IMG/VR virus record: IMGVR_UViG_3300030103_000827
Span: 1 to 37,771 of that record
Reading direction: 5' to 3' (one strand)
Source of the DNA: a virus
Length of the DNA stretch: 37,771 nucleotides
Below the pieces are notes generated by a model. The model was not told where the DNA came from, did not search any database, and was given only the letters and a program-made list of their open reading frames with translations. This document shows positions 4,309 through 33,772 of the stretch, piece by piece; within the stretch, counting starts at the first letter, position 1; the number at the start of each line of letters is the position of its first letter. Position numbers and translations under genes: made by a program.

Positions 4309-5478
4309 ATGCCTAACATACCTGAAGAATGGGGTAATAACTTTTACAAGTCAGGGTGGCAACCAGGACTAGAAGTTAATGAGCAGACTGGCATAGGTGA
4401 AATCACACATGTTGGAACTGACCCTAATTACAGGAATAAATTAGATTCTATATTGCTTGAATGGGGGTTTGACCCTAAGCATTACGAGATAGAAGGTTCT
4501 GTTCGTGCATCCAGTTGGAATGTACAACTCAAAGGTGGTAAGACAGAAACCTTTTATGCGTTTAAGGGTATAGTAAAAAAGAAAAGACCTGGACATGACA
4601 AATATTTTCAGGCACTGTTTAAACAAGCAGCTAAGAAACCACCTATCGTAAAAAAATATAATGCTGGAGACACAGCGTTTATGTGGTTTATGTCTGATTG
4701 GCAACTTGGTAAGAAAGACTTTGGTGTAGAGAACACTATTAAAAGATACGATAGAGCATTACAAGATGCTGTCAATAGAATAAAAGACTTGCGTAGATTA
4801 GGTAATGAGATAGATGAGATATACATGGTAGGTTTAGGAGACCTAACAGAAAACTGTACTCCACACTTCTACGAATCACAACCACACAATGTAGAACTTA
4901 CATTAATAGAACAGTACGCATTAGCTAGGTCTATGATTATGAAAACTATTGATACATTTCTACCACATGCACCTAAGTTAATCTTGGCAGGTGTTCCTGG
5001 TAATCATGGTGAGATGTCAAGAACCAGTAAAGGACAAGTATCTACAAATAGATTAGACAACTCAGACACAATGCACTTACAAATCTGTGAAGAAATTATG
5101 TCTGCTAATCCTGACAGGTACAGCAAGGTAGAAGTAAATGTGCCTTCTGGCTTTCACCAAACGCTGGTCATCAAGGGTAAGACAGTTGCCTTTACACATG
5201 GACACATGACTGGTGGCTCAGGTAATCCAGAAAACAAAATAGAAAATTGGTGGAAGGGTCAGATGTATGGGTGGCTTCCAGTAGGAGATGCAGAGATACT
5301 TGTAACAGCACACTACCATCATTTAAGAATGAAACAACAAGGTGATAGAACTTGGTTTCAAGCACCATCAATAGATAAGAGTATAGATTTTACAGAGAGA
5401 ACTGGTTTGTGGTCTCATCCTGGCGTCCTTACTTTCACTATAAGTAACAAAGGGTGGGATAACTACTATCCTTTATAG
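4309..5478 (+). CDS. Calcineurin-like metallophosphoesterase
   Basis: The 389-residue protein carries the metal-binding motifs of the calcineurin/Mre11 superfamily in order: SDWQ (129-132), GLGDLTEN (175-182), GVPGNHGE (228-235), FTHGH (295-299) and VTAHYHH (332-338). In the first motif the usual DxH is DxQ, as in several phage members from memory. Related phage enzymes act on DNA ends or phosphodiesters during replication or recombination; the substrate here is unknown. Residues 1-120 form an extra N-terminal domain with no recognised motif, containing LFKQ (103-106) encoded by a GTTTAAAC site at 4617. It converges on, and overlaps by 6 nt, the leftward nuclease gene, with no terminator between them. 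Confidence 0.85.
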   Translation: MPNIPEEWGNNFYKSGWQPGLEVNEQTGIGEITHVGTDPNYRNKLDSILLEWGFDPKHYEIEGSVRASSWNVQLKGGKTETFYAFKGIVKKKRPGHDKYFQALFKQAAKKPPIVKKYNAGDTAFMWFMSDWQLGKKDFGVENTIKRYDRALQDAVNRIKDLRRLGNEIDEIYMVGLGDLTENCTPHFYESQPHNVELTLIEQYALARSMIMKTIDTFLPHAPKLILAGVPGNHGEMSRTSKGQVSTNRLDNSDTMHLQICEEIMSANPDRYSKVEVNVPSGFHQTLVIKGKTVAFTHGHMTGGSGNPENKIENWWKGQMYGWLPVGDAEILVTAHYHHLRMKQQGDRTWFQAPSIDKSIDFTERTGLWSHPGVLTFTISNKGWDNYYPL

Positions 5479-13422: not shown

Positions 13423-13518
13423 TTGATTATTAAATGCCCTCGTTGTGGTGGAGACCTTCTACCACAAAAGGACATGAAGTGTACTAACAAAGATTGTAAA
13501 AATTATGGAAAAAAATAA
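13423..13518 (+). CDS. 31-aa zinc-ribbon micro-protein (TTG start)
   Basis: The frame reads (TTG)IIKCPRCGGDLLPQKDMK and then CTNKDCKNYGKK, with Cys pairs CPRC and CTNKDC. The TTG follows the previous stop immediately (TAATTG), so translation would rely on coupling. It overlaps the terminase start by 14 nt. Zinc-ribbon micro-proteins recur in this genome, which supports it. Confidence 0.45.
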   Translation: MIIKCPRCGGDLLPQKDMKCTNKDCKNYGKK

Positions 13519-15427
13519 ACTCTGTTACGCAGCAGGATGTAAAAGAGTGCTTAGTGGTAAGCGTAGAAAATATTGTAGTGATAGGTGTGCTAACAGAATA
13601 CAAACACAAAAGAAAAGGGCAAAAGCAAAAGGTATTCAGTGGGAACAAAAAGAAGAAGATTTAATTATACCTAGCAAAAAAAATGTACAAAGTCGTAGAG
13701 GTGTTGTATATAACGATTTAAAAGAATCAGGTTTAGGTAAAGATATACTTAGCCAAAAAACAACAATACAAGATGTAGCTAAAATATTAGATACTTCTAT
13801 AGCTGCAGTATCAATGGCGTATCAAGCATACATAGAAGATTTAGAAGAAGAAGAAGCTAGAAAAACTTGGGAGTTACCACAAGTAGCAGAAAAATCATTA
13901 GAAGATTTTAGAGATTTTAGAGATAGATATTTTCAAACAGAAACAGGAGACCCATACGAAACACCAGACTTTCACATCAAGTGGATTAATTCTATATTAG
14001 AAGCTATTGAACAGGGTAATCAGCAAATGATATTATCCCCACCTAGACATGGTAAGACTGATTTGTTAATACACTTTGCTGTATGGCTTATATGTACAAA
14101 ACCTAATATTAGAATTTTGTGGGTTGGTGGTAATGAAGAGATTGCAAAGAATGCAGTTAGTTCTGTATTAGACCAATTAGAAAGTAATGAATTATTAATT
14201 GAAGAAATATGTGGACCAGGACCTAAATTTAAACCAACAAGCAGAACAGGTAAGTCTTGGTCGCAAAATGGTTTTACTGTTGGTACTCGTACTGTTACTG
14301 GTATTAAATCTCCTACCATGGTTGGTATAGGTAGAGGTGGTAAAATTTTGTCAAGAGACTGCGATATTATTATTGCTGATGACATAGAAGACCACAGTTC
14401 TACTATGCAACCTGCATCAAGAGAAAACACAAGAAATTGGTGGACTACAACATTGTCTAGTCGTAAAGAGGAACATACAGCTATGGTAGTTATAGGTTCA
14501 AGACAACACTATGACGATTTATATTCACACTTGTTAGATAACGAATCATGGCTAACTATTGTAGAAGAAGCACACGACACAGCTTGTAACTTAACAGATT
14601 GGGATGAAAAGCTACATACAGATTGTATGTTGTGGGCTAAAAAAAGAACATACAAGTGGCTTATGGATAGAAAGAAAGCTGCTGAAACTACAGGTGGTAG
14701 AGCTATTTATGAAATGGTATATCTTAATGTAGCTATGCCAGATGGTATGAGTTTATTTGATAGACCAGAAATAGAAGAGTGTAGAGACCAAAACAGAGAC
14801 ATAGGACATATACCACACAATGTAAGATTAATTGCAGGTCTTGACCCTGCGTCTACAGGGTATCAAGCTGCATTTTTATGGGGATATGACCAAAGCACAG
14901 ACAAGTTGTACATGATAGATATGGAAAACAGTTTAGGTGGTGGTATACCAGTAGCATTAGAAATAATTCAACAATGGTACAAAAAATATAATCTTGCACA
15001 TTGGGTTATAGAAGAAAATGGTTTTCAAAGAGCAATACGACAAGATAAATCAATTCGTGAGTTTTCAGGTAAGCATGGTATATTTTTAGAAGGTACGCAG
15101 ACTTATGGTAACAAGCATGACCCAGTGTATGGTGTTACAGCCATGAGACCATTGTTTGAACAGAAGTTAATAAATTTACCTTATCGTAGCTTTGAAGCAC
15201 AAGAAAAGGTAAACTTATATACAAGTCAGTTAGTATATTTTAGTTCTGCACAAAACAAAAGTAGAAGTGTAGGACAAAAGTCTGACTTAGTTATGGCAAG
15301 TTGGTTTCCAATGAAAACAATAAGGCGTTTACAAAAAGAAAGACTTGCTACAATGGGTATGGAATATGAACCTAGCTTTAGTGGATACTCAGGGCTAGAC
15401 ATAGATATAGATGTTTGGAGAACATGA
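13505..15427 (+). CDS. terL: Terminase large subunit with N-terminal zinc-finger/HTH extension
   Basis: The 640-residue DNA-packaging motor has a Walker A SPPRHGKT (178-185), a Walker B CDIIIADDIED (286-296), and nuclease acidic residues in AGLDPASTG (D447), VIEENG (E503/E504) and KSDLVMAS (D594). Before the ATPase there is a Cys4 finger (C7, C12, C24, C28) and an HTH-like stretch TTIQDVAKILDTSIAAVSMA (86-105), followed by an acidic linker. Sequence-specific DNA recognition is normally done by a separate small subunit, which I cannot find, so this extension may take its place. The motor acts at the portal encoded next, with ATGA overlap. Confidence 0.92.
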   Translation: MEKNKLCYAAGCKRVLSGKRRKYCSDRCANRIQTQKKRAKAKGIQWEQKEEDLIIPSKKNVQSRRGVVYNDLKESGLGKDILSQKTTIQDVAKILDTSIAAVSMAYQAYIEDLEEEEARKTWELPQVAEKSLEDFRDFRDRYFQTETGDPYETPDFHIKWINSILEAIEQGNQQMILSPPRHGKTDLLIHFAVWLICTKPNIRILWVGGNEEIAKNAVSSVLDQLESNELLIEEICGPGPKFKPTSRTGKSWSQNGFTVGTRTVTGIKSPTMVGIGRGGKILSRDCDIIIADDIEDHSSTMQPASRENTRNWWTTTLSSRKEEHTAMVVIGSRQHYDDLYSHLLDNESWLTIVEEAHDTACNLTDWDEKLHTDCMLWAKKRTYKWLMDRKKAAETTGGRAIYEMVYLNVAMPDGMSLFDRPEIEECRDQNRDIGHIPHNVRLIAGLDPASTGYQAAFLWGYDQSTDKLYMIDMENSLGGGIPVALEIIQQWYKKYNLAHWVIEENGFQRAIRQDKSIREFSGKHGIFLEGTQTYGNKHDPVYGVTAMRPLFEQKLINLPYRSFEAQEKVNLYTSQLVYFSSAQNKSRSVGQKSDLVMASWFPMKTIRRLQKERLATMGMEYEPSFSGYSGLDIDIDVWRT

Positions 15428-17437: not shown

Positions 17438-17759
17438 AAAACCAAAAGTAGATGGTGCATATCAAGATTTAACATTAAAACCTATTCCAGGTTCTGATAA
17501 ATTTGGTGGCTATACACAACAAGAAGAACAAATAGCTGCAGTAGGTTCACCACCTTCTGATATGTTGATACCACAAGATGCAGCAGCTATGCAATATAAA
17601 CCAGAAGATATATTTTCTAAAGGTACTGAAAGACAAGATGAAGCAGGAACATTTGATAGTACACCACAAGATGTTGTTAGTTTACCTGTAGGAACAGACA
17701 CACAAATACTTGTAGAGCTAATTAAGGAAAAAGCACCAGTAACTATACAGAGGTTTTAA
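17424..17759 (+). CDS. Small Pro/Gln-rich virion-region protein
   Basis: From the ATG at 17424 (MPGGRKPKVDGAYQDL) the product has 111 residues; an in-frame ATG at 17409 would add five. It is rich in Pro, Gln, Asp and Thr and looks largely unfolded until a C-terminal helix (DTQILVELIKEKAPVTIQRF). It overlaps the next ATG (TAATG). No family recognised; assembly cofactor of the large protein downstream is a guess. Confidence 0.5.
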   Translation: MPGGRKPKVDGAYQDLTLKPIPGSDKFGGYTQQEEQIAAVGSPPSDMLIPQDAAAMQYKPEDIFSKGTERQDEAGTFDSTPQDVVSLPVGTDTQILVELIKEKAPVTIQRF

Positions 17760-20700
17760 TGAACATTTATAATAAATGGAATAAAGACTTCTACAATAAA
17801 CATGACGAATATCTTGCATATAACAAAAGAAAAGATGCAACTAAAGTCAATACAGATATAGATGCTATAACTGCTAACTTTCAACAATTAAAAGATTTAA
17901 CACCATTAGAAATGGACGAATTAGTTGCTTCAGCAGCAGAGTTAAATGTTACACCACAACAATATTATGAATTGTACAAAACAACTAAACCTATACAAGT
18001 AAACATAACTAATGGTAAACCTAATGCTGTTACAGATTTTTTAAAAAAAGTACAAAAAACAATTCGCAATAATCAAAAAATATACGATAAAACAAAAAAA
18101 GATTTAGGTTACGACAAAGGTGGCAAGGCATTTACTGGCACATTGTTTATGGGATTAAATTCTATATTTGATGCTTTACAAAGAGGTGGAGTTAATAATT
18201 TGTCTAATGTATATTTTGAAACAGAAGAAGAGATACTTGCAGAAAAAGGATTAACTAGACAAGATATTATAGAATTTGAAAAAAAAGGTCGTAATGAAAA
18301 CCAAGGTGAATGGAAAGTAAAAGGAATACAAGCACAAGCATTTGCAAGAACTGTATCTAAGTTAACAGATGCAGGTGCAGAATCATTGTTAAATGTTTTA
18401 GGTTTAGATACACCAACAGAATCAATTAAAGATTTAAATGAAAGCACAAAATCTTGGTTAGCTACACAAGGAATAGTAGATGCAGATGGTGAAGGTTATT
18501 TACAGAAAACAGATATAGAAGCTGCTATACAAGCAACAAAAGAAAATACATTAGATGAAATTAAAATACAAGAAAAGGAACTACAAAGAGAACTTACATC
18601 AACAGAAAAAGCAAGTCTAGCTTTAAACAACTGGTATGAAATTGTTACAGAAGATGTGTCTGATAATCCATTAATTAATTTATTAGGAGAATCTACGCCA
18701 GTAGCACAAAACAGAAAGTTAAGAGAAGGATATGAGAAAGCACAAATATCTTCTAACTTAGGTGATTTTGGTAGTTATTTAATTACAGGAAATATGCCAG
18801 GTAGGTATGCACCACAAAATGTTATGTATGAAGAAACACAAGAATTATACGATTTAAAAATATTACAAACAGAACAAGCATTTGATTCAGGTGAAATATC
18901 TATAACAGAAAAAAATAAATTAGTAGACAAATTAGAAGACGAAAGAGATGAAGAGTTAAATAAAATAGCATTTGAACCTAACAAAGGTTTAGCAGGAACA
19001 ATGGGTGGACTTATGAATTTAGTAGCTATGTACTACACAGACCCATTTGTTATGGCATTAAAAGGTGTTGGATTAGGTGGTAAAGTTCCAGAAAAGTTTG
19101 ATGAAGTTCTTGCTGGTGCACAAAAAGAAATGAAACGATTTGTTGATGAAGGTGGAAGTGTAGCAGAATTTTGGCAAAACAATGATGAGATACTTGATGG
19201 TTTATCTACTGTTATTGTAGAAGCTAACAAAGCTGGACAACCTACATTTTTAAATATGATTAATTCAGGATTTAATCATAAGTTTGCAAAGACTTTATCT
19301 GATGCAACTGACCCTGCAATTATTAGAGATAATCTTATAGATGGTTTTAATAATCAATATGTATCAGATATGGTGTTTGGAAAGTCGTCATTAGGCAGTA
19401 CAGGACAATTTAGAATACAGTCAAAAGTTGTATCAGATAATTTAATTAGAGCTTTTGGTGATAAAGATTTAGATAACAGTATAACTGCAACAGGTAGAAG
19501 AGGTGGAACATTAAAAGAATTAATTAATGGTACTGATGTTAGATTGCCTAATCGTGGACAAGTGGATTTAAGAAATATACAAGAAGCTGTAGTAATGTTT
19601 TCAAGAGTAGGTAATGTATTTAAAGTTCCAGAATCTCGTTTAAACAAACTTCTTAATGATTTTTATACTGCAGCAGATGAAGGTTTATATACAAAAGCAC
19701 AAGATATTTATTATGATGGTTTACTTAGAACAGAAGGTGCATTACAACTTAGATATTTGTATGGATTATCTGATACAGAAATAACAGAATTTTTTGGAAG
19801 AATGAAACAAGGTCCAAGAATGTTTAGTGATGATGTAGGAGATTTTTTAACACCATCAAGAACAGATGAGTTTTATCCAGTAGATGAAATAGACATTCTT
19901 ACAAAAAAACAATTTAGTGGACAAGTAGAAGGTGTAGAAGTACCACAAGAATTTGTAAGAAACTCTATAGAATTAATAAATCAATTTAAAGGTTATACAA
20001 TAGAAATACCTGATGTAGTTGGAATAATTAAAACTACATCACAAAGAAGAAGACTAAGAGCATCAGCTTTAATAGAAAAAGAAGGTATTGATAAAGTCTT
20101 TAATAAAGCAAGAGAAGCATTTGAAAAGGGTAAACCAGGAACATTTTGGGATGAATCAACTCCTATGGGTGAAGAAATATCAGCTATAGCTAAAGGACTA
20201 GGAGACCCAGGATTATTGTTTAAAGGTCAAGAAGGAGTTTTATCAGCAATAGAAAAAGGTACATTTGGATTAGTAAGAGGTGTGTTTTATCCATTACAGT
20301 TGTTAGGTAGATTTTCATATCCAGCAAAACTTACAGTAGATGGACACCTTAGAGCAGCGTTATTAGGAGTTAGGTCTGCATTTAGAAGTCCATTTAAATT
20401 TCTTAGATTCTTACTTAATGATGTAAATGGTGTTGTAGCTAGAGCAATAGGTTACACACCTGAAACATCTTTAGTTGGTCCATATAAAATAACCAGACCA
20501 TTGGAATTTAAAAATAAAAAGTTACAAGGATTAAATGAAAAATTACCACAATCTGTAAGAAAAGCATTAGGTGTAATGCAAGATAATGCAGAATATGGAA
20601 TACCTGAACTACAATCTTTATCCTCTGCTTCACCAACATTTGCTTTTGGTAGAAGATTTCCTGATACAGGATATATATTAATGAATAAGTTAGGTGGCAA

Positions 20701-23700
20701 AGATGTTCCTATGCCAGATGGAGTACAAGCATTTAAGCTGTCAGATGATTATATAGAAGCTGTGCAAGAATATTTGTTTGAGTACATTGATGATGATTTA
20801 GCTATGATAACAGCAGCGTTAATGAGAAAAGGTTTAGACTATACAGATATTGCTAAGTTTTATCAAGACACACCAGCAGTACAAACTATTATAGAAGATG
20901 CTAACAAGATGATGCAATCAAGAAACTTGTATGCAAAAGGAACATTACCTATTGTTACTAAACCAGAAGACTATGCTGCTTTATCTAAACATTATGTACA
21001 AAGTATAAATAACTTTACTGGTGGTAGTGCAGACATGATAGAAATAATAGCTACAGGTAAAGTAGGTAGAATAGATTTGCGTAGCACTGATTCTATGACA
21101 CCAGAAAATTTAGCTGTATATAATGCAAAAATTAAAAAACTTACTTTAAAAAATCAAAGTAAAATGCCTAATCAAGTTCCTAAAATGAAACCTGAGTTAG
21201 ATGAAAGAACTGCGTATCAAAGAGGATTAGACTCATTGTTTTTTGCTACTGCACAAATGGAAGCAGACTTGATTAGAGTGCCTTTGTTTAAACAAGCATA
21301 CGAACATTTTATAGAAGCAGGTATACCATTTACATCTAAGCAAGGTCTGAACAAAATTATGGCAGCACATAAAGACCCAGAATCATCAGTTAAATTAAGT
21401 GATGATATATTTAAAATGGTAGAAAAAGAATACAACGCTATAAAAGATTTAGCACCAGATATAGCTGTAACAGAAAGAACAGTGCCAGTAAAAGTATTTG
21501 ATAATGGTGATTCACTATCAATAATTGCATATAGCGATAATGGGCAAAAACAAATTACATCATTAAAAAGAATAGATACATTTAATGACGAGCTTGTATT
21601 TGATTTAAATTTATATAATACAGAACTTAAAGTATTTAAAAAACAATCTGCTGTTGCTGACTACAGACTAGGTGATGATGGAGATAAAATAGGTGTTTAT
21701 AATTTTTCTGTAAATAAATCTGAAGCAATTATTAATGGGTCTATACCAGACAAAGAATTACTTGTAAGAGCTGTAACTAATGCACTAGATGACAGTGTAA
21801 ATGCAGAAGCATTAGTAGATGATGCTATAGAATATTTAGCTAGTAACCAAGGTAAATTTGATAAAGTTATTACTAAAAAAGAATTGTTTCAAGTATTAGG
21901 TATTGATGGTTCTACACCAAATATTGTAGGAATAAAAGTTAAATTACAAAAAGGCAAGACAACTAAAAAAGTTAAAAATGCACAAGGAGAAATAACACAT
22001 GATGTAGGTATTACTACATTAAACAGAGTATTAGGTAAAAAAATATCAAGACCAATACTTAGAAAAAAAGCAGATGTAGAGGACGCTATAGATAGAGCTT
22101 ACGAATATATACAAGCTAATCCAGAAGGTTGGAGTATAGATTTAGGAAGAAGCAAAAATACAAACATACCTGGTTATTATGTATCACCATACAAAACAAA
22201 AGAAGTTGTTTTAGATACACCTGTAACTAGAAAACAAATAGAAGATTTTATTCTTAAAAATAAAACATTACTTAAAAAAGAAGACCATGTGTTAGGTGGT
22301 TGGGTAGATACAAGTAATGGTAAATTAAATTTAGATGTTTCTATAAAAGTTAAAAAAGGTGTTGCTGCACAAGTAGTTGATGGAACAGATGAAGCTCTTG
22401 CTAAAGCACAATACATAGCAATACTAGGAGACCAAAAAGCTATTGGTAATATAACTACTGCTGGATACCAAGGTGCTATACCAAGTAATACTGCAGGTGC
22501 AGTAGATGTAATAAGAAGAGCAGGTCAAGATTTACTTATAGGTTCTAACAAAAAAATATTAAAACCTAATGTAGCTATAACATTACCTAGAGCTGGTGCA
22601 GTTATTGGAAATGATGTATTACAAACAGCAGGAATTAAAGCAATAGTAGATGAAAAAGCAGGTGTAGTTAAATTACTAAAACCACAAAGCAATCCAATAC
22701 TAGACAGAACATTTAGTGGTGATTATCAATCTATGTTAGATTTGTCAGATATAAAATCTGCATCTACACCAAGAGTAATGTCTATGGAAGATTTGCATGA
22801 AAGAGCTGTAGAGTATGCTTTTGAGTTGCACTCTAGGTTACTGTATAACTTAACAGAACGAGGGTTTTTTTCACAAGCATATAGAGTAGGTTTCGCATTC
22901 TTTGAAGCATGGCGTGAAGTATTAGGTAGATATTACAATTTAGGTTTAGCTAATCCTAAAGCTATAGCACAAATTGGATTTGGTTACAGAAAAGGACTAG
23001 AACATAATTTTATATATGAAGACCCTTCAGGTGAAAAATATCTTATTGTTCCTGTAGGTGGAACACCATTTGAAGATTATGTAAAGTCTGAAGGTAGAGG
23101 TGCGTTTACAGATGATATGGCACTTGCTGATTCTAAAATTATTGCTAAAAGAGGTATACCACTTAGTGCGTTAAATGTAGGTGGTGGTGGATTGTTTCCA
23201 CCAGTAGGACCTGCATTAGCATTACCTACAGGAATATTGGTAAGAGATAAACCTAAAGCTAAAAAGAATTTAGAAAAGTATGTGTTTGGTGGGTTTGAAT
23301 TAACAGGTGCTAGGTATGATTCATTAGAAGATATACCAGGAATATTGTTAGAAACTACAATACCATCAGTTGGTAAAAACTTATTAAACCAAGTAGCTAC
23401 TAATTTAGACACAGCAGGATTAGACGAAGACCAATGGTTATCATCTGTTAGCACAGCTTATCAAGTTGCAGGTATATTAAGACCAGATTTAGCAGATGAC
23501 CAAGAAGCATTAGAAACTGTAGCTATGACACTAGCAGCTAACTTCTTTCAATTAAAAGCATGGGATAGATTTGTAAATCCATTTATACCTAGATTATCTG
23601 TATTGTACGCAATAGAAGGTAACGAAGTTGCATTTGCAGAATGGTATGGTTCAAAGGGTGAAGATAGTGGTTTGGTATATAACAACTTTGTAGAGTTGTC

Positions 23701-24604
23701 AGTCATACATGGTTTTTATCAAGATATAAAAGATGAGTATGTAATGACACTAGGACCACAAGGTGAGTTCTATGCTTTATTAGAAGTAGCTAAATTATTA
23801 GGATTAGATAACAGAGATTTATCAGAAGGGTTTACTTCTACTGCATTACAGATAAAAGGTAAAAATATATCTGAAGGTGGTATCTTGCCAAGAACTACAC
23901 CAGAATATGATTTTGTATTAGACAATCCAGAACTAGCTGCAGATTATGGACCAGTGTTAGTATTGTTTGCACCAGGATTAGACGAGGGTAATGTTGAGTA
24001 TGGTGGTGTTAGCTACATATCTAATTTAGGATTATTTTCACCTAAAACCCCAGATGAATTTTATGTATCAACACAGACATTTCTTGCTAGTTCAATAGAG
24101 GTAGCAACAAAAGATTACTGGTCTAAAGTTATAGACAATACAACTACTGACGCTGGTGAAAGAGTTGCTAGGAAAAAAGCTAAGTTTGCATTAATAGAAG
24201 CAGATTTAGCACAAATGTTTCCTATGGCTTATGGTAATTCTGCAGAATTAAATAAAGTATTAGGTTCTGATTTTGAAACAGGAGTGCCTAATGATGTGTT
24301 AATAGATTATTTACAAAGAGCTATTAAAGACCCTAGGTTAAATAACTTTGATAACAGAGATGAGATAGCATTGTATCTTAACTACAGAGCACAAGCTATA
24401 GATGCAGTAGCAGATAAAAGAGGTTATCCTATAGAAAAAGATGCTATGAGATGGATTAGCAGAGATGATTCAATACAAGCACAAGAAGTGCGTAATCAGT
24501 TGTATACTAAAGCACAAGAAATAGGAAGAAATAATCCTAAATTTTTGGTAATATTTGATAAAGTATTTGCTTACGAATTAACTAGATTTGGATTAGAAGG
24601 ATAA
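17759..24604 (+). CDS. Giant cysteine-free virion protein (2,281 aa), probable ejection/internal protein
   Basis: The frame is intact over 6.8 kb, the largest in the window. There is no tape-measure repeat pattern, and no sheath or tube genes follow, so I read it as a podovirus-type internal or ejected protein. Features: long helical N-terminal 400 residues, a hydrophobic Gly-rich stretch at about 410-440 (GTMGGLMNLVAMYYTDPFVM), a second at about 855-890, and a segment at about 1475-1570 (GYYVSPYKTKEVVL, then VLGGWVDTSNGKLNLDVS, A...DQKAI) resembling a domain I associate with multidomain (polyvalent-type) phage proteins. I see no Cys. GTTTAAAC sites at 19638 and 21286 encode RLNK and LFKQ. 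TAATG couples it to the gene before. Confidence 0.6.
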   Translation: MNIYNKWNKDFYNKHDEYLAYNKRKDATKVNTDIDAITANFQQLKDLTPLEMDELVASAAELNVTPQQYYELYKTTKPIQVNITNGKPNAVTDFLKKVQKTIRNNQKIYDKTKKDLGYDKGGKAFTGTLFMGLNSIFDALQRGGVNNLSNVYFETEEEILAEKGLTRQDIIEFEKKGRNENQGEWKVKGIQAQAFARTVSKLTDAGAESLLNVLGLDTPTESIKDLNESTKSWLATQGIVDADGEGYLQKTDIEAAIQATKENTLDEIKIQEKELQRELTSTEKASLALNNWYEIVTEDVSDNPLINLLGESTPVAQNRKLREGYEKAQISSNLGDFGSYLITGNMPGRYAPQNVMYEETQELYDLKILQTEQAFDSGEISITEKNKLVDKLEDERDEELNKIAFEPNKGLAGTMGGLMNLVAMYYTDPFVMALKGVGLGGKVPEKFDEVLAGAQKEMKRFVDEGGSVAEFWQNNDEILDGLSTVIVEANKAGQPTFLNMINSGFNHKFAKTLSDATDPAIIRDNLIDGFNNQYVSDMVFGKSSLGSTGQFRIQSKVVSDNLIRAFGDKDLDNSITATGRRGGTLKELINGTDVRLPNRGQVDLRNIQEAVVMFSRVGNVFKVPESRLNKLLNDFYTAADEGLYTKAQDIYYDGLLRTEGALQLRYLYGLSDTEITEFFGRMKQGPRMFSDDVGDFLTPSRTDEFYPVDEIDILTKKQFSGQVEGVEVPQEFVRNSIELINQFKGYTIEIPDVVGIIKTTSQRRRLRASALIEKEGIDKVFNKAREAFEKGKPGTFWDESTPMGEEISAIAKGLGDPGLLFKGQEGVLSAIEKGTFGLVRGVFYPLQLLGRFSYPAKLTVDGHLRAALLGVRSAFRSPFKFLRFLLNDVNGVVARAIGYTPETSLVGPYKITRPLEFKNKKLQGLNEKLPQSVRKALGVMQDNAEYGIPELQSLSSASPTFAFGRRFPDTGYILMNKLGGKDVPMPDGVQAFKLSDDYIEAVQEYLFEYIDDDLAMITAALMRKGLDYTDIAKFYQDTPAVQTIIEDANKMMQSRNLYAKGTLPIVTKPEDYAALSKHYVQSINNFTGGSADMIEIIATGKVGRIDLRSTDSMTPENLAVYNAKIKKLTLKNQSKMPNQVPKMKPELDERTAYQRGLDSLFFATAQMEADLIRVPLFKQAYEHFIEAGIPFTSKQGLNKIMAAHKDPESSVKLSDDIFKMVEKEYNAIKDLAPDIAVTERTVPVKVFDNGDSLSIIAYSDNGQKQITSLKRIDTFNDELVFDLNLYNTELKVFKKQSAVADYRLGDDGDKIGVYNFSVNKSEAIINGSIPDKELLVRAVTNALDDSVNAEALVDDAIEYLASNQGKFDKVITKKELFQVLGIDGSTPNIVGIKVKLQKGKTTKKVKNAQGEITHDVGITTLNRVLGKKISRPILRKKADVEDAIDRAYEYIQANPEGWSIDLGRSKNTNIPGYYVSPYKTKEVVLDTPVTRKQIEDFILKNKTLLKKEDHVLGGWVDTSNGKLNLDVSIKVKKGVAAQVVDGTDEALAKAQYIAILGDQKAIGNITTAGYQGAIPSNTAGAVDVIRRAGQDLLIGSNKKILKPNVAITLPRAGAVIGNDVLQTAGIKAIVDEKAGVVKLLKPQSNPILDRTFSGDYQSMLDLSDIKSASTPRVMSMEDLHERAVEYAFELHSRLLYNLTERGFFSQAYRVGFAFFEAWREVLGRYYNLGLANPKAIAQIGFGYRKGLEHNFIYEDPSGEKYLIVPVGGTPFEDYVKSEGRGAFTDDMALADSKIIAKRGIPLSALNVGGGGLFPPVGPALALPTGILVRDKPKAKKNLEKYVFGGFELTGARYDSLEDIPGILLETTIPSVGKNLLNQVATNLDTAGLDEDQWLSSVSTAYQVAGILRPDLADDQEALETVAMTLAANFFQLKAWDRFVNPFIPRLSVLYAIEGNEVAFAEWYGSKGEDSGLVYNNFVELSVIHGFYQDIKDEYVMTLGPQGEFYALLEVAKLLGLDNRDLSEGFTSTALQIKGKNISEGGILPRTTPEYDFVLDNPELAADYGPVLVLFAPGLDEGNVEYGGVSYISNLGLFSPKTPDEFYVSTQTFLASSIEVATKDYWSKVIDNTTTDAGERVARKKAKFALIEADLAQMFPMAYGNSAELNKVLGSDFETGVPNDVLIDYLQRAIKDPRLNNFDNRDEIALYLNYRAQAIDAVADKRGYPIEKDAMRWISRDDSIQAQEVRNQLYTKAQEIGRNNPKFLVIFDKVFAYELTRFGLEG

Positions 24605-24605
24605 T

Positions 24606-25610
24606 ATGCCAGGACCATACGACACGACAACAACTACTGTACCACAAGGACCATTTGGTGGTGTAGGCAGTGGACAAGGAGCAGGTAATAATAGCTCTAT
24701 AGATGAAGATTTTTATGTAAGAATAGAAAGTATATTAGACACAGCCACTACAACAAATAAAACACCATTAGGTAATGGCTACTTAAAAGAATATGAAGTA
24801 GAAACAGGAATAACTGACCCAGAAGAAGGACCAGTTGTAAAGAATATATCTGCTGAAGAGTTTTTAACAAGTGATGAATGGCAATCACAAAGAAGAGAAA
24901 TACTAGGAACAGGTGCTGCGTATAAATATATATATTTTCCTACAGATGTAGGAGCACAAGCAAGGCAACTAACACCATATCTTAGAGTACAAACTAAAAA
25001 TTTATTATCTTCTGCAGGTCTTATAGATTTAAATAAAACTGTAGGTGCAGAGATAGATGATGAGTTTCTTAAAGGATTGAAAGCAGCTATGGAATTTAGT
25101 ATGAATAATGGTGGTACATTTTCATGGACAGCAGGAATAAAATTATTAGCAGGAACTACACAAGCTGCTGCTTTAGGTGGATTAGGTGGTGGATATACAT
25201 TTGGAGATGAAGCACTGGATGAGTATGTAGAAGAATTAAAAAAGAAAGCAGAAGCTAGAAAAGGTGCTCCATTGTCAGATTACGAAAAACAATACATAAC
25301 TGGTAAATTAGTTGAAGGACCAGTAGAACAATTTAAACAATCACTAACAGGACTAGGAGCAGGTTCTGCACCAACATTAGGTTATGATATTACAACAGGT
25401 CAAGCTATACAAACACCTGGTATGGAAGCAGAAGAACCAGATGTAAGTATACTTTCAGAAGGTGGACAAGATGTATTAGATGAAATCTTTAAACCTAGAG
25501 AAGAATTACAAAGACAAGCAGATATAGAAGATGACACATTCTATAGAATGCAGAGAAATCTAGCAGGATTAAAAACTGCTGAATCGCAACCAGTACAGAG
25601 GTTAACATAA
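24606..25610 (+). CDS. Virion-region protein, unknown (334 aa)
   Basis: The product begins with a Thr/Gly-rich unstructured segment (DTTTTTVPQGPFGGVGSGQG), then a helical domain with a Gly/Ala-rich hydrophobic stretch (GIKLLAGTTQAAALGGLGGG, about 178-197) that might contact membrane, and a charged helix. It ends PVQRLT and overlaps the lysozyme ATG. It has no Cys. Probably an internal/ejection protein, from context and composition. Confidence 0.5.
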   Translation: MPGPYDTTTTTVPQGPFGGVGSGQGAGNNSSIDEDFYVRIESILDTATTTNKTPLGNGYLKEYEVETGITDPEEGPVVKNISAEEFLTSDEWQSQRREILGTGAAYKYIYFPTDVGAQARQLTPYLRVQTKNLLSSAGLIDLNKTVGAEIDDEFLKGLKAAMEFSMNNGGTFSWTAGIKLLAGTTQAAALGGLGGGYTFGDEALDEYVEELKKKAEARKGAPLSDYEKQYITGKLVEGPVEQFKQSLTGLGAGSAPTLGYDITTGQAIQTPGMEAEEPDVSILSEGGQDVLDEIFKPREELQRQADIEDDTFYRMQRNLAGLKTAESQPVQRLT

Positions 25611-26356
25611 TGGATGTAACACAAGAAGCAATAGAAATAATTAAAGCAGAAGAAACACTGCAATTAGAAGCATACAGAGATGGTCAATCAATATCTATTG
25701 GATATGGTCATAGTAATACAAGTGGTGGTGAACAATTTGAATTAGGCGATACTATTACAGAAGAAAAAGCTAATGAATTATTGTTAGCTGATTTAGAAGA
25801 GATTGAAAGAATTGTTAATCAAAGAATGAAAAATTATAATGTTGTATTAACACAAGGTCAATATGACGCTATGATTGTGGGAACATACAACAGACCAGAA
25901 AATTTAAAATCAAAAAAAATATATACTACTTTAGCTAGTGGTGATATGGATGCTATAAAAAAAGCGTGGGATAATACAATATCAGATAACGATAGGGAAG
26001 ATTATCCTGGCTTAGTAAAAAGATTAGAAGCAGAATTAAATCTTATTGATAAAGTAGAAGAACCTACAACTTCAGAACCACAAGACCCAGACAGAGGAAT
26101 ACCAGCACCTAGTGAGACATTTGTTCCTGACAGTCTACCAGTTACTAGAGCAACACCACAAGTAAACGAAGACTATTATACACAAGTACCAGTATCTGCA
26201 CAGAATGTTTCATACGCTAGAGTTAAACAAATGTTAGAAGCACAAGTAAATAAACAAAAAAAATCAGCAGGTCATTCACCAGTAATTCCTGGTGTACCAC
26301 CAAAAATTAATTTTAGTGATGCTGTACGAACTGCATTGAAACTACTAGGTAGATAA
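25610..26356 (+). CDS. Virion-associated GH24-type lysozyme
   Basis: Residues 1-140 match T4-type lysozymes: AEETLQLEAYRDGQSISIGYGH (13-34, cited in part) places catalytic Glu15 and Asp24 8 residues apart; the usual third residue Thr is Ser29, one position closer. GQYDAMIVGTYNRP (about 82-95) matches the conserved C-lobe. A Pro/Thr-rich linker and basic tail (150-248) follow, which soluble endolysins usually lack. It is encoded among ejection-type proteins far from the lysis cassette, so it probably opens the peptidoglycan during DNA entry. The Thr-to-Ser change leaves activity plausible but unproven. Confidence 0.75.
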   Translation: MDVTQEAIEIIKAEETLQLEAYRDGQSISIGYGHSNTSGGEQFELGDTITEEKANELLLADLEEIERIVNQRMKNYNVVLTQGQYDAMIVGTYNRPENLKSKKIYTTLASGDMDAIKKAWDNTISDNDREDYPGLVKRLEAELNLIDKVEEPTTSEPQDPDRGIPAPSETFVPDSLPVTRATPQVNEDYYTQVPVSAQNVSYARVKQMLEAQVNKQKKSAGHSPVIPGVPPKINFSDAVRTALKLLGR

Positions 26357-26481
26357 TGGCAGAAAAATACAAAGTAAAAACATTTATGGAATACAATGCT
26401 GAACGAGGCGTTAATGTAACTAAAAAAGAATACGCACCACTTGTTGAAGAAATAGCAAAGTTGTTTAAACAAGGTGAGTAA
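26356..26481 (+). CDS. Small protein (41 aa) between lysozyme and the HPr-domain protein
   Basis: The frame MAEKYKVKTFMEYNAERGVN... ends EEIAKLFKQGE. It starts on TAATG overlap with the lysozyme and overlaps the next gene's GTG by 8 nt. It is short, charged and helical. LFKQ is encoded by the GTTTAAAC site at 26463. Function unknown. Confidence 0.5.
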   Translation: MAEKYKVKTFMEYNAERGVNVTKKEYAPLVEEIAKLFKQGE

Positions 26482-29410
26482 ATATAATTCTATAGAAGAT
26501 GTTATTAAAGCTAAAGATGCTTTATTAAATATATTATTTGAACCAGCAGTTACAGTAGAAGAAGGTCTTACTGTAATGCAACAAATTAGAAAAGATGCGT
26601 TAATTACATTTATGACTAATGATTTATCTCATGGCAATTTAGAGTATGATGTTGTACAAAAACTTACAAGAGATTTAGTTTTAGGTTTAAATGGAAGTAA
26701 AGAAAAAGTTGGTCTAAGGTTAATGGATTATATATCAGGAGCTATAGATTTATACAACGATTTAGAAGCAGATGGTTTAAAAAATTTACCAGCTAGTACA
26801 TTAGATAATCTGTTTACTGAGGAGTTTCATCCTGATTTATTAGAAGTATTTGATATAGAAAGAAAAATGTACACACAAACTGTAAATTATAGACTTAATG
26901 ATTTTCCTTATACAGCACAAGAAATGAAACAAGCAGGTTTAGAAAAAACTCCAGGTGCTGCAATACCTGGAAGAAGAATAAAATTTAGAGATGAAGACAT
27001 TGTTACTATGGTACAGCAAATAGTTAAAAATGAAATCCATCATAGTATTAGACATGTTATGCCAGAAAGTTTTGAAATGAGAACTATATTAGTTAATCAT
27101 CCACAAATACATAGGGAACTAGGTGCTATGGCAGAAGCAGGACAAATTAGTAAAGAAATATTAGATGATTTATACACCTTTAAAATATATGGATTTGAAG
27201 TAAATGGTTATGAAGACTTTTATACAGCTCTTGCCTATTTAGATGGTGAGTTTAAAAAGAGAGCACCTGAGTTTATATATGGAACAAAGAGCAATAATAG
27301 ATTTTATAAAGATGACATACAGATGAGAACAACAGATAAATACTTTGCTTATCTTGGTTATGGGTCTTATGAAGATTCTTTTTATCACAAATTTAATACA
27401 AAAATAAATCAAATGTTTAACGAAATAAGAAAAGAAATTAAAAATGAAAACTACGAAGAGTTAGTTACTAAAAAAATAGAAGAAGCAGGATTTGTTAGTG
27501 AATCAGAAATGCTTGATTACGCAGCAGGAAGAGATTATGGACAATATGAGTTAGGTAAAAATTTAGGTAATTATGAAGGTGTAAATGCACAATATAACGA
27601 AATACTACAAGTTTACAATGATACAGTAGAAGAAGTTATTTACAGTAAAATGGGTGATTTAATAGACATGCAATTAATAGAGTATGGTAAGTATGGTGTA
27701 TTTACTACAAAAGTAGACAATGCTACTGAGATACCAGTTAATTCTAAATTACCAGTATTTGTTTCAGAAATAAAAGAACAACCTGTAATAGACACACCTA
27801 CAAATGTAGTAGACGATGCACCAAAACAACCTAAAGTAAAAGAACCAAAAGCTAATATAAAAAAATTAACACAAATAAATTTACAAATACAAGACCCTGA
27901 TGGATTACACGCTAGACCAATAGCTATGATAAATGATTATTTAACTGAAAAAGGTATTACTGCTTATGTAAAACACAAGGGTACTTTAAAACCATTTAGT
28001 TTTATAAGAGTCTTAACAAAAGGAATTAAATACAATGAAACATTTGAAATATATTTTCCTAAAGATGTTAATACAGAACTCTTTGTAGACAACATGATAT
28101 TACTAGGTGTAGGTGATGAAGTAAATCCTAGAGGTGGAACTATAAGAACTGGAGATGATGTTATATCTAATCACAGCACAAGAGTTAGAAATGTTGCAAC
28201 ACAGTATCACAATATTATGGGATTAGAACAACCAGAATTTAAACCAGCAGTTGTATTTAGTGAAGAGTTAGGTGCAGCAGCAGCAGATATATTTGACCAG
28301 TTGCCTATGTTTGATGAAGCAGCGTTGCCATATTATAAAAATTTTATAGAAGAAACTAATGTGCAGTATCAACTGTTGTTAGAAGGAGGTTTAGAATTTG
28401 AAATAGTAGACTATGACCCATACACACCTAATAGGTCAGGGCATAATCAAATGATTACTGATATGGAAAATGGTAGATTAAAAGTATTAGCAACAGATAC
28501 AGGTTTTGGAGATGATACAACAGATATAAGAAATCCTATGTTAGCTGAATCAAAACACACAGATGTAAGAGGAAGAGTAATGCTAGAGAATGATGTCTTT
28601 AGAGCTGTACATGACACATTTGGACATGGTATGAGAGGTAATACTTTTGGTCCAATAGGTGAGTACAACGCATGGTTAGCTCATAAAGAGATGTATTCAA
28701 GAGATGCACAAAGAGTAATGACTACAGAAACATTAGGTCAAAATACATATACAAATTATGGACAACACATGAGAGATGTAGATGGTAACTTAATACCAAA
28801 AGGAGACCCTAACTATATTAAACCAGGAGATAGACCATTTGCTCCACAAAAAGTAGCTATAGCTCCAGAGCCACTAATTGATGCTGCAGCTACAGTTGTA
28901 GAAGATGCTGTTGATTTAGTAGATAATGAATCTATGAATAAGGTAACTCAGTTAGCAAATACAAATCCTGAAGTAGCTAATAATTTATGGAATCAATCTA
29001 AGAAGATTGTAGGTAAAACATTTAATGTTGGTACTGGAGTATTAGACCCAGGTGATGTAATTCTTACACAAGGTATGGCTAGGATGTTACCTAGATTAGG
29101 ATTAGCTGCTATATCAGGACCTGCACTAGCAGCTTATATGTTTTATGAGTTGTCAGTATTAGCAGTAGATGCAGTACAAGCAATAGATAAAGCTAGACAA
29201 AACCAAGGAATAGAATTATTAGATTACGATAATACAAATTCAGATATAGACTGGAAACAATTAGGTAAAGATGCGTGGTCAGAGTTTGGAGATGTATCAG
29301 ATACATGGTCATTGTCATGGAAAATAAGTGAACCTATAATAAATAAAGCATTTGAAAGCTATGGTAAACTTGACAATAGGTTATACGAAGCAGCTATGGA
29401 GGCTAAATAA
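26474..29410 (+). CDS. 978-aa virion protein with HPr-like domain and H-x4-H domain
   Basis: The GTG start is set by overlap with the preceding gene. Residues 1-410 are helical and unrecognised. Residues about 466-545 resemble the HPr phosphocarrier of the PTS: LQIQDPDGLHARPIAM holds GLHARP (477-482, His479 and Arg481 at the active-site positions), and FSFIRVLTKGI (508-518) aligns with the SIMGVMSLGI segment so that Ser509 falls on regulatory Ser46. Residues about 590-770 form another domain with VHDTFGH (712-718), GPIGEYNAWLAH (726-737) and TTETLGQN (750-757), a possible two-His/one-Glu metal site. A Gly/Ala-rich hydrophobic stretch lies near 880-910. No Cys is seen. I infer a multidomain protein carried in the virion and injected. 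Confidence 0.7.
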   Translation: MSKYNSIEDVIKAKDALLNILFEPAVTVEEGLTVMQQIRKDALITFMTNDLSHGNLEYDVVQKLTRDLVLGLNGSKEKVGLRLMDYISGAIDLYNDLEADGLKNLPASTLDNLFTEEFHPDLLEVFDIERKMYTQTVNYRLNDFPYTAQEMKQAGLEKTPGAAIPGRRIKFRDEDIVTMVQQIVKNEIHHSIRHVMPESFEMRTILVNHPQIHRELGAMAEAGQISKEILDDLYTFKIYGFEVNGYEDFYTALAYLDGEFKKRAPEFIYGTKSNNRFYKDDIQMRTTDKYFAYLGYGSYEDSFYHKFNTKINQMFNEIRKEIKNENYEELVTKKIEEAGFVSESEMLDYAAGRDYGQYELGKNLGNYEGVNAQYNEILQVYNDTVEEVIYSKMGDLIDMQLIEYGKYGVFTTKVDNATEIPVNSKLPVFVSEIKEQPVIDTPTNVVDDAPKQPKVKEPKANIKKLTQINLQIQDPDGLHARPIAMINDYLTEKGITAYVKHKGTLKPFSFIRVLTKGIKYNETFEIYFPKDVNTELFVDNMILLGVGDEVNPRGGTIRTGDDVISNHSTRVRNVATQYHNIMGLEQPEFKPAVVFSEELGAAAADIFDQLPMFDEAALPYYKNFIEETNVQYQLLLEGGLEFEIVDYDPYTPNRSGHNQMITDMENGRLKVLATDTGFGDDTTDIRNPMLAESKHTDVRGRVMLENDVFRAVHDTFGHGMRGNTFGPIGEYNAWLAHKEMYSRDAQRVMTTETLGQNTYTNYGQHMRDVDGNLIPKGDPNYIKPGDRPFAPQKVAIAPEPLIDAAATVVEDAVDLVDNESMNKVTQLANTNPEVANNLWNQSKKIVGKTFNVGTGVLDPGDVILTQGMARMLPRLGLAAISGPALAAYMFYELSVLAVDAVQAIDKARQNQGIELLDYDNTNSDIDWKQLGKDAWSEFGDVSDTWSLSWKISEPIINKAFESYGKLDNRLYEAAMEAK

Positions 29411-32773: not shown

Positions 32774-33772
32774 ATGGCAGCTATAGGCTCACCAGACCCA
32801 ATCTCAGTTAGTGAGATTAACAATTTTACTGGTGAACTCTTTAAAGTTGGTGCTAGAAGAACACCTCTACTATCCATGGTGGGTGGTTTAACAGGTGGTA
32901 AACTTCTTAACTCTCCAGTATTCCAAACCCAAAAAGTGGATACACCTACAGTAAACAGCTACACAGCAGTTGCAGAAGGTGGAACTCCAGCATATTTTGG
33001 TAGAAGCAGAAGTTCAGCAATAGACTGTGTACAAATCTGGAATCAAGGTGTGAAACTCACATACTCAGCTCTAGGTTCAACAGGATTTTTGAACTCCCAA
33101 GCTATGGAATCTGGAACAGCAGCTTTTGAAGGTTCAAACCCAGTCAATGATGAAATGGCATTTCAAATAGAAGAACTACTCAGCAAAATCGCAAGAGAAG
33201 TTGAGTTTGAATTCTTTAATGCTACTTTCAATGATGGAACAGATGGAAACCCAAGAGAAATGCGTGGCATTAATGAGTGGGTAGCATCAGGTAATGGTTC
33301 ATCTACATTTGATAACCAAGTTTCATCTGCAGACACAGCATTAGATTATGATGCAATAGCAGAGATACTTAAAGTTATGTATGATAATGGTGCTCCAATG
33401 CAGAACCCTGTTCTTTTTGCAAGACCAGCTTCTATTCTTGATTTAAACCAAGGATTAGCAGCTTCAGGTAATGCACAAATGGCAGTATTACCAAGAGATA
33501 GAAATATCGCAGGTGTAGATATTGATACAATTATCACACCATTTGGTAACATTGGATTAGTTGTGAACGAATTCGTTCCAGCTTCTAAAGCATTTGTCCT
33601 TGACTTATCCTACCTTGATGTTTGTTTCTTAAACATCCCAGGTAAGGGTGCAGTATTCGTAGAGGATACAGACAATGATGATGCAGCAGCAGTATCAAAG
33701 CGTGTGTACATGGAAATTGGTCTTGAAAAAGGTCCAGCAGAATACCATGGCGTAATCACAGGCGTTATTTAA
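32774..33772 (+). CDS. Major capsid protein
   Basis: The 332-residue protein is the shell subunit. It has an N-terminal FTGELFKVGARRTPLLSMVG, a long central region with DEMAFQIEELLSKIAREVEF (in part; matching the E-loop/spine helix of HK97-fold proteins) and ARPASILDLNQGL, and a C-terminal VYMEIGLEKGPAEYHGVITG. The pattern resembles DUF5309/SU10-type capsid proteins. It follows the scaffold, has a strong Shine-Dalgarno (TTAGGAG) and uses more C-ending codons than its neighbours, as expected for the most expressed gene. Confidence 0.85.
   Translation: MAAIGSPDPISVSEINNFTGELFKVGARRTPLLSMVGGLTGGKLLNSPVFQTQKVDTPTVNSYTAVAEGGTPAYFGRSRSSAIDCVQIWNQGVKLTYSALGSTGFLNSQAMESGTAAFEGSNPVNDEMAFQIEELLSKIAREVEFEFFNATFNDGTDGNPREMRGINEWVASGNGSSTFDNQVSSADTALDYDAIAEILKVMYDNGAPMQNPVLFARPASILDLNQGLAASGNAQMAVLPRDRNIAGVDIDTIITPFGNIGLVVNEFVPASKAFVLDLSYLDVCFLNIPGKGAVFVEDTDNDDAAAVSKRVYMEIGLEKGPAEYHGVITGVI

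Follow-up and report, generated by a model that had tools for sequence, protein, structure and literature searches.

Why should a large protein of a marine phage contain a sequence that looks like HPr, the phosphocarrier of the phosphotransferase system (PTS)? The question arises from the IMG/VR virus record IMGVR_UViG_3300030103_000827, of which positions 1 to 37,771 (37,771 nucleotides, termed the window) were analysed. On the plus strand, an open reading frame (ORF) of 978 amino acids (aa) at 26474..29410 encodes an N-terminal part, a linker, an HPr-like domain, an HDxFGH domain (phrog_3170) and a C-terminal tail. An earlier reading of the sequence alone had placed the HPr-like region at 27869-28108, corresponding to residues 466-545, with the motif GLHARP, His479, Arg481 and Ser509, and all of these assignments are correct. 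We find that residues 462-545 (27857..28108, plus strand) form a real HPr domain, a conclusion strongly supported by homology and by predicted fold. The interpretation to which we tentatively lean is that the domain is an exchangeable effector cassette in a polyvalent, probably ejected virion protein, and that it would mimic host HPr and act on the PTS. Judged from sequence, it is plausible that the domain affects the PTS of the host.

The Pfam PTS-HPr profile (PF00381) matches the region with E = 8.8e-5 and a borderline 22.9 bits against a cut-off of 23, and in a six-frame search it reaches 23.4 bits, above that cut-off. The NCBIfam profile TIGR01003 matches with E = 2e-4, at a score under its curated cut-off. 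The relative L002, which shares 66% with the 978-aa protein across the C-terminal half, has DPAGLHARP together with the serine equivalent, and its domain alone scores 26.1 bits against Pfam PTS-HPr, over the cut-off. When a two-domain phage profile made from the 978-aa protein and L002 was compared with the PDB, HPr chains ranked first (E = 0.002). A wider family was collected by using the HDxFGH domain and the C-terminal tail as queries. The HPr-like domain is present in 20 of the 32 ORFs so collected, from 19 marine phage contigs including the source contig, and Pfam PTS-HPr matches 12 of 21 family members at E <= 0.1 when they are scanned singly. A viral scan with the HPr-like domain alone returned contigs of this family only. 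The remaining HPr matches of the phage collection appear for the most part to be host or prophage sequence, many of them on unannotated records. Beyond PTS-HPr, no Pfam family matches the 978-aa protein at E <= 1.

Structure prediction and a fold search had been named beforehand as the test of the HPr assignment, and the HPr fold was recovered. An AlphaFold model of the domain built from 15 phage sequences has a mean predicted local distance difference test (pLDDT) score of 81.4 and a predicted template modelling (pTM) score of 0.72. Its elements run strand-helix-strand-strand-helix-strand-helix, which is the order of HPr and the order that had been proposed from the sequence. The model adopts the open-faced β-sandwich of HPr, and its leading matches in the PDB are all HPr or Crh. 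With Foldseek this holds for the first 34 matches (best E = 1.2e-4, probability 1.00), and with VIA for the top 31 (Z at least 6.0), where the best match has Z = 10.4 over 83 residues at 2.4 Å and the first unrelated one has Z = 5.7. In the register of the match, model residues 12-94 correspond to HPr 2-88, with His479 lying on His15. BFVD contained no viral HPr fold at E <= 1e-3, which is a weak absence only.

Thus Pfam and NCBIfam profiles, the PDB profile search and the predicted fold agree in bearing out the sequence-only reading, and their agreement rules out a chance motif. Host contamination or a stray host gene is also ruled out, as the ORF that contains the domain belongs to a phage and sits in a conserved phage gene order. 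The domain resembles the HPr family (PF00381 and TIGR01003, including NPr and Crh) in its fold, its strand/helix order and a GLHARP loop whose His, Arg and Pro align with those of HPr. Members of that family are free proteins of ~90 aa or parts of PTS fusions, whereas the phage copy is embedded in a large multidomain protein, neither free-standing nor fused to a second PTS domain, none being recognised in the ORF. The phage copies differ further in that Ser46 is not conserved, the third helix is short or missing in many, and the sequence evolves fast. The literature that was searched held nothing relevant on an HPr of phages or virions.

The HPr domain occupies an exchangeable module slot. The N-terminal part (residues 1 to ~438; 26474..27789, plus strand) varies between close phages, being 24-26% identical where the capsids are 86-96% identical. 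Between the window phage and L117 the capsid is 96% identical and the 334- and 288-aa ORFs are 88-89% identical; the identity is 25% for the N-terminal part and 41% for the HPr domain. The HPr of L117 is 73% identical to that of L100, and the capsids of these two phages are 48% identical. In L013 and L093, with capsids 86-87% identical to that of the window phage, other sequence fills the slot, and the same is true of L101 and L105. The likeness of the L117 and L100 domains, taken with the slot differences between phages of near-identical capsid, indicates that the HPr module moves independently of the genome.

The module is preceded by a junction that is conserved as DNA. A 28-bp block (27790..27817, plus strand) encodes DTPTNVVDD, and the same DNA is found in otherwise diverged relatives. 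The peptide TPTNVV was searched for within the family, and 21 of its 24 occurrences are encoded by an identical 18 bases; from codon usage alone, the identical bases would be expected with a probability of ~7% per occurrence, the occurrences not being independent. The 20-bp core ACACCTACAAATGTAGTAGA (27794-27813, plus strand) is present exactly in 93 IMG/VR stretches, whereas 1.2 Mb of sequence from more distant phage loci yielded a single site with <= 3 mismatches to it. Each of the 106 core occurrences examined is read in the same frame of its ORF, often with two or three to a protein, and the 28-bp block is an in-frame linker at module joints in ~80 viral loci, including L107, L111, L098 and L160. 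In 40 contexts with flanks less than 60% identical, conservation extends from -4 to +24, with background level outside. Directly ahead of the searched core, Asp is encoded by GAC in 29 cases and by GAT in one, in a family where GAT makes up 78% of Asp codons. Because this codon was outside the search, the junction is conserved at the level of DNA, either by recombination or by constraint.

The core contains the dyad CTACA-AA-TGTAG, and the segments between junctions sort into recurring classes. In shufflons and other short-repeat cassette systems, swappable protein segments are likewise bounded by short, repeated in-frame DNA. Unlike shufflons, we see here no inversion or dedicated recombinase; segments are exchanged from one phage to another, for which homologous recombination of the ordinary kind may be enough. 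The window encodes an exonuclease (phrog_284, 4309-5478), the only DNA-metabolism gene recognised among its scanned proteins, and such an enzyme would fit recombination at short homologies. No polymerase gene was recognised among these proteins, and no tRNA gene was found.

HPr modules adjoin the junction in further linker proteins. In L173 the motif is GLHMRP (29.6 bits, over the Pfam cut-off) and in L162 it is GLHARP (22.5 bits). Weaker modules are found in L218 (LHAQP), beside a GNAT domain that is over its own Pfam cut-off, and in L157/L158 (WHNTP). The histidine is kept in all of these modules. The module found in the slot of L013 is present in L173 as well. Inspected by eye, other slot modules have ADP-ribosyltransferase (ART)-like motifs (among L013 8960-9880, L173, L101, L105 and L128), and that of L105 has a ParB-like motif, GDGNHRLRAY. 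The slot module of L128 is Nudix-like with a weak Pfam match; among these other slot modules, only the GNAT of L218 passed a Pfam cut-off.

Is the active site of HPr retained? His479 (codon 27908..27910), Arg481 (codon 27914..27916) and Pro482 fill the positions of His15, Arg17 and Pro18 in the phosphorylation center of HPr. All 16 distinct phage copies of the main family keep the histidine, and 14 have an unaltered GLHARP, the exceptions being GLHMIP in L014 and GLHAGP in L100. The expectation that relatives keep both His and Arg therefore holds in full for the histidine, and for the arginine in 14 of the 16. Among ten representatives with less than 85% identity, Asp474, Gly477, Leu478, His479, Pro482 and Gly503 are unvarying within the domain, and Arg481 is kept in eight. 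Conservation is highest in the DxxGLHARP loop, while the rest of the domain changes fast; pairwise dN/dS (the ratio of nonsynonymous to synonymous change) of the domain is ~0.3 to 1.2, rough values from short sequences. Ser509 (codon 27998..28000) had been matched to the regulatory Ser46. The match is real in the 978-aa protein, but it is not conserved; the position is Ser in two of the ten representatives (the 978-aa protein and L002) and Gly, Gln or Ala in the others, ruling out Ser46 as a functional feature of the family. A regulatory Ser46 is defining for the HPr of low-GC Gram-positive bacteria, and not for all HPr.

These patterns bear on what the domain might do. It could be that the HPr fold has been reused as a compact spacer or scaffold within a virion protein and has no role in the PTS. 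Small stable domains do serve as spacers, many relatives lack the domain or have other modules in the slot, and the phage copies have lost Ser46 and sometimes Arg. Yet conservation is concentrated on the active-site loop and not on the core, and this is more than a spacer needs, so that we consider structural reuse unlikely. Alternatively, the cassette might act as a regulator purely by binding a host protein that normally sees HPr, without phosphotransfer. HPr is known to act by binding: transcription factors, glycogen phosphorylase and Rsd are among the partners of Crh or HPr, and solved structures of HPr bound to CcpA, to Rsd, to glycogen phosphorylase and to a fructose regulator appear among the fold matches. 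Loss of Arg from two copies that keep His is in accord with this, and suggests that at least those copies do not perform the usual phosphate transfer. Against it, the strict His, with the Gly-Leu that precedes it and the Pro that follows in the main family, suggests that the phosphorylation center matters. We think it improbable that binding alone explains the domain.

The effector interpretation also requires that the protein reach the host cell. A phage lysozyme gene (25610..26356, plus strand) lies directly upstream of the 978-aa ORF, and the same block contains a 2281-aa ORF (17759..24604, plus strand) and, downstream, an SU10-type major capsid protein (32774..33772, plus strand). In relatives, as far as the contig of each extends, the order is kept as 2281-aa ORF, 334-aa ORF, lysozyme, 978-aa protein, 597-, 288- and 163-aa ORFs and capsid, and the block lies between the portal and capsid genes; the lysozyme was not detected in L098, L101 and L107. 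The HDxFGH domain (residues 570-800; 28181..28873, plus strand) is common to other large phage proteins. Some of these are very large and belong to phages whose reported source is cyanobacteria, and others bear the annotation ‘large polyvalent protein’ or ‘structural protein’. The C-terminal tail (residues 807-978; 28892..29407, plus strand) is common to all family members, and the most hydrophobic stretch of the protein lies in it near residue 880. The 978-aa protein fits a polyvalent architecture, being large and multidomain with a variable slot and conserved synteny in a structural block. From its gene position and the shared phrog_3170 domain, the protein is probably virion-borne and ejected. 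That it is instead a late-expressed protein of the infected cell, with an HPr domain that acts late or aids assembly, we regard as quite improbable. Such gene blocks do also hold non-virion assembly factors, but two things speak against this: the gene keeps its place beside the lysozyme and giant ORFs, in the interval from portal to capsid, and the phrog_3170 domain is common to proteins annotated large polyvalent or structural.

Some further features of these genes may be recorded. The lysozyme is unusually variable, with 33-34% identity to those of L115 and L117 where the capsid is 96% identical. The terminase (13505-15427) has an N-terminal cysteine-rich stretch, CYAAGCLRPLPPKASKYCSTRC, that is zinc-finger-like and conserved in four phages. 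The HDxFGH domain was modelled with high confidence (pLDDT 89), and gave no usable PDB fold match with Foldseek and none with VIA. Its invariant HxxxxH and a later Glu resemble the iron ligands of aromatic amino acid hydroxylases, and such enzymes are two of the top three Foldseek matches, at insignificant E values (0.13 and 1.3). HPr is not a regular partner of this domain, for the HPr profile missed it in more distant HDxFGH loci.

In a genome scan the terminase matched two contigs of metagenome-assembled genomes (MAGs), one gammaproteobacterial and one from Rhodobacteraceae, which differ in class and are possibly misbinned. The C-terminal tail, used in the same way, matched nothing. HPr is present in 39 of 41 and 38 of 39 genomes of the families of the two MAGs, and enzyme I in 20 of 21 genomes of the one family tested of the two. 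A relationship to Actinomarinales phages was considered and dropped, as the evidence goes no further than a weak likeness of capsid, portal and terminase to those of actinophages.

In the effector interpretation, the 978-aa protein would be packaged and would enter the cell together with the DNA. Once inside, the cassette would act as an HPr mimic and meet the host enzyme I of the PTS or of the nitrogen PTS, either taking phosphate on His479 or filling the HPr-binding site. PTS signalling or sugar uptake might then be disturbed early in infection, and loss of the Ser46 site from most copies might provide an escape from control by HPr kinase. A number of observations weigh against this. Several family members have no HPr-like domain. 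The loss of Arg481 in L014 and L100, together with the distant LHAQP and WHNTP copies, indicates that not all copies are ordinary phosphocarriers. Links to a host consist of two MAG contigs of differing class, and the two MAGs themselves gave no match to HPr or enzyme I. Moreover, we infer packaging and ejection from the position and company of the gene.

The proposal nonetheless has parallels. Some of the proteins that phages are known to inject act on transcription, on nucleotides or on restriction. Polyvalent phage proteins were surveyed by Iyer et al. 2017 (PMC5512222), who described ART, lysozyme and RelA/SpoT domains within them; the main text of that survey mentions neither HPr nor the PTS. 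Like the 978-aa protein, they are large and multidomain and vary in their effector-like domains, which include ART and GNAT, and they are thought to be delivered with the DNA. The modules described here differ in having at their borders a junction that is conserved as DNA. A later paper places ART and GNAT domains in injected polyvalent proteins of this kind (PMC7824862). Shuffling of phage protein domains is known in general, and the text of one account (PMC10684548) mentions neither linkers nor ejection. In Caulobacter the nitrogen PTS controls the accumulation of (p)ppGpp (PMC4848567), which would make it a sensible target for an HPr mimic. A more far-reaching proposal is that marine phages swap a shared library of effector modules in frame at the DNA-identical junction, and that the delivered HPr is a phosphoryl-accepting decoy for the PTS or nitrogen PTS, the first virion-borne HPr. 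Taken as a whole, this seems to us rather unlikely.

If the effector interpretation is true, an HPr mimic adds a central sugar and nitrogen phosphorelay to the early targets of phages. The conserved GLHARP loop makes it possible to test this at a single residue, His479. The DNA sequence conserved at the joints provides a handle for finding swappable phage modules, most of them without known function.
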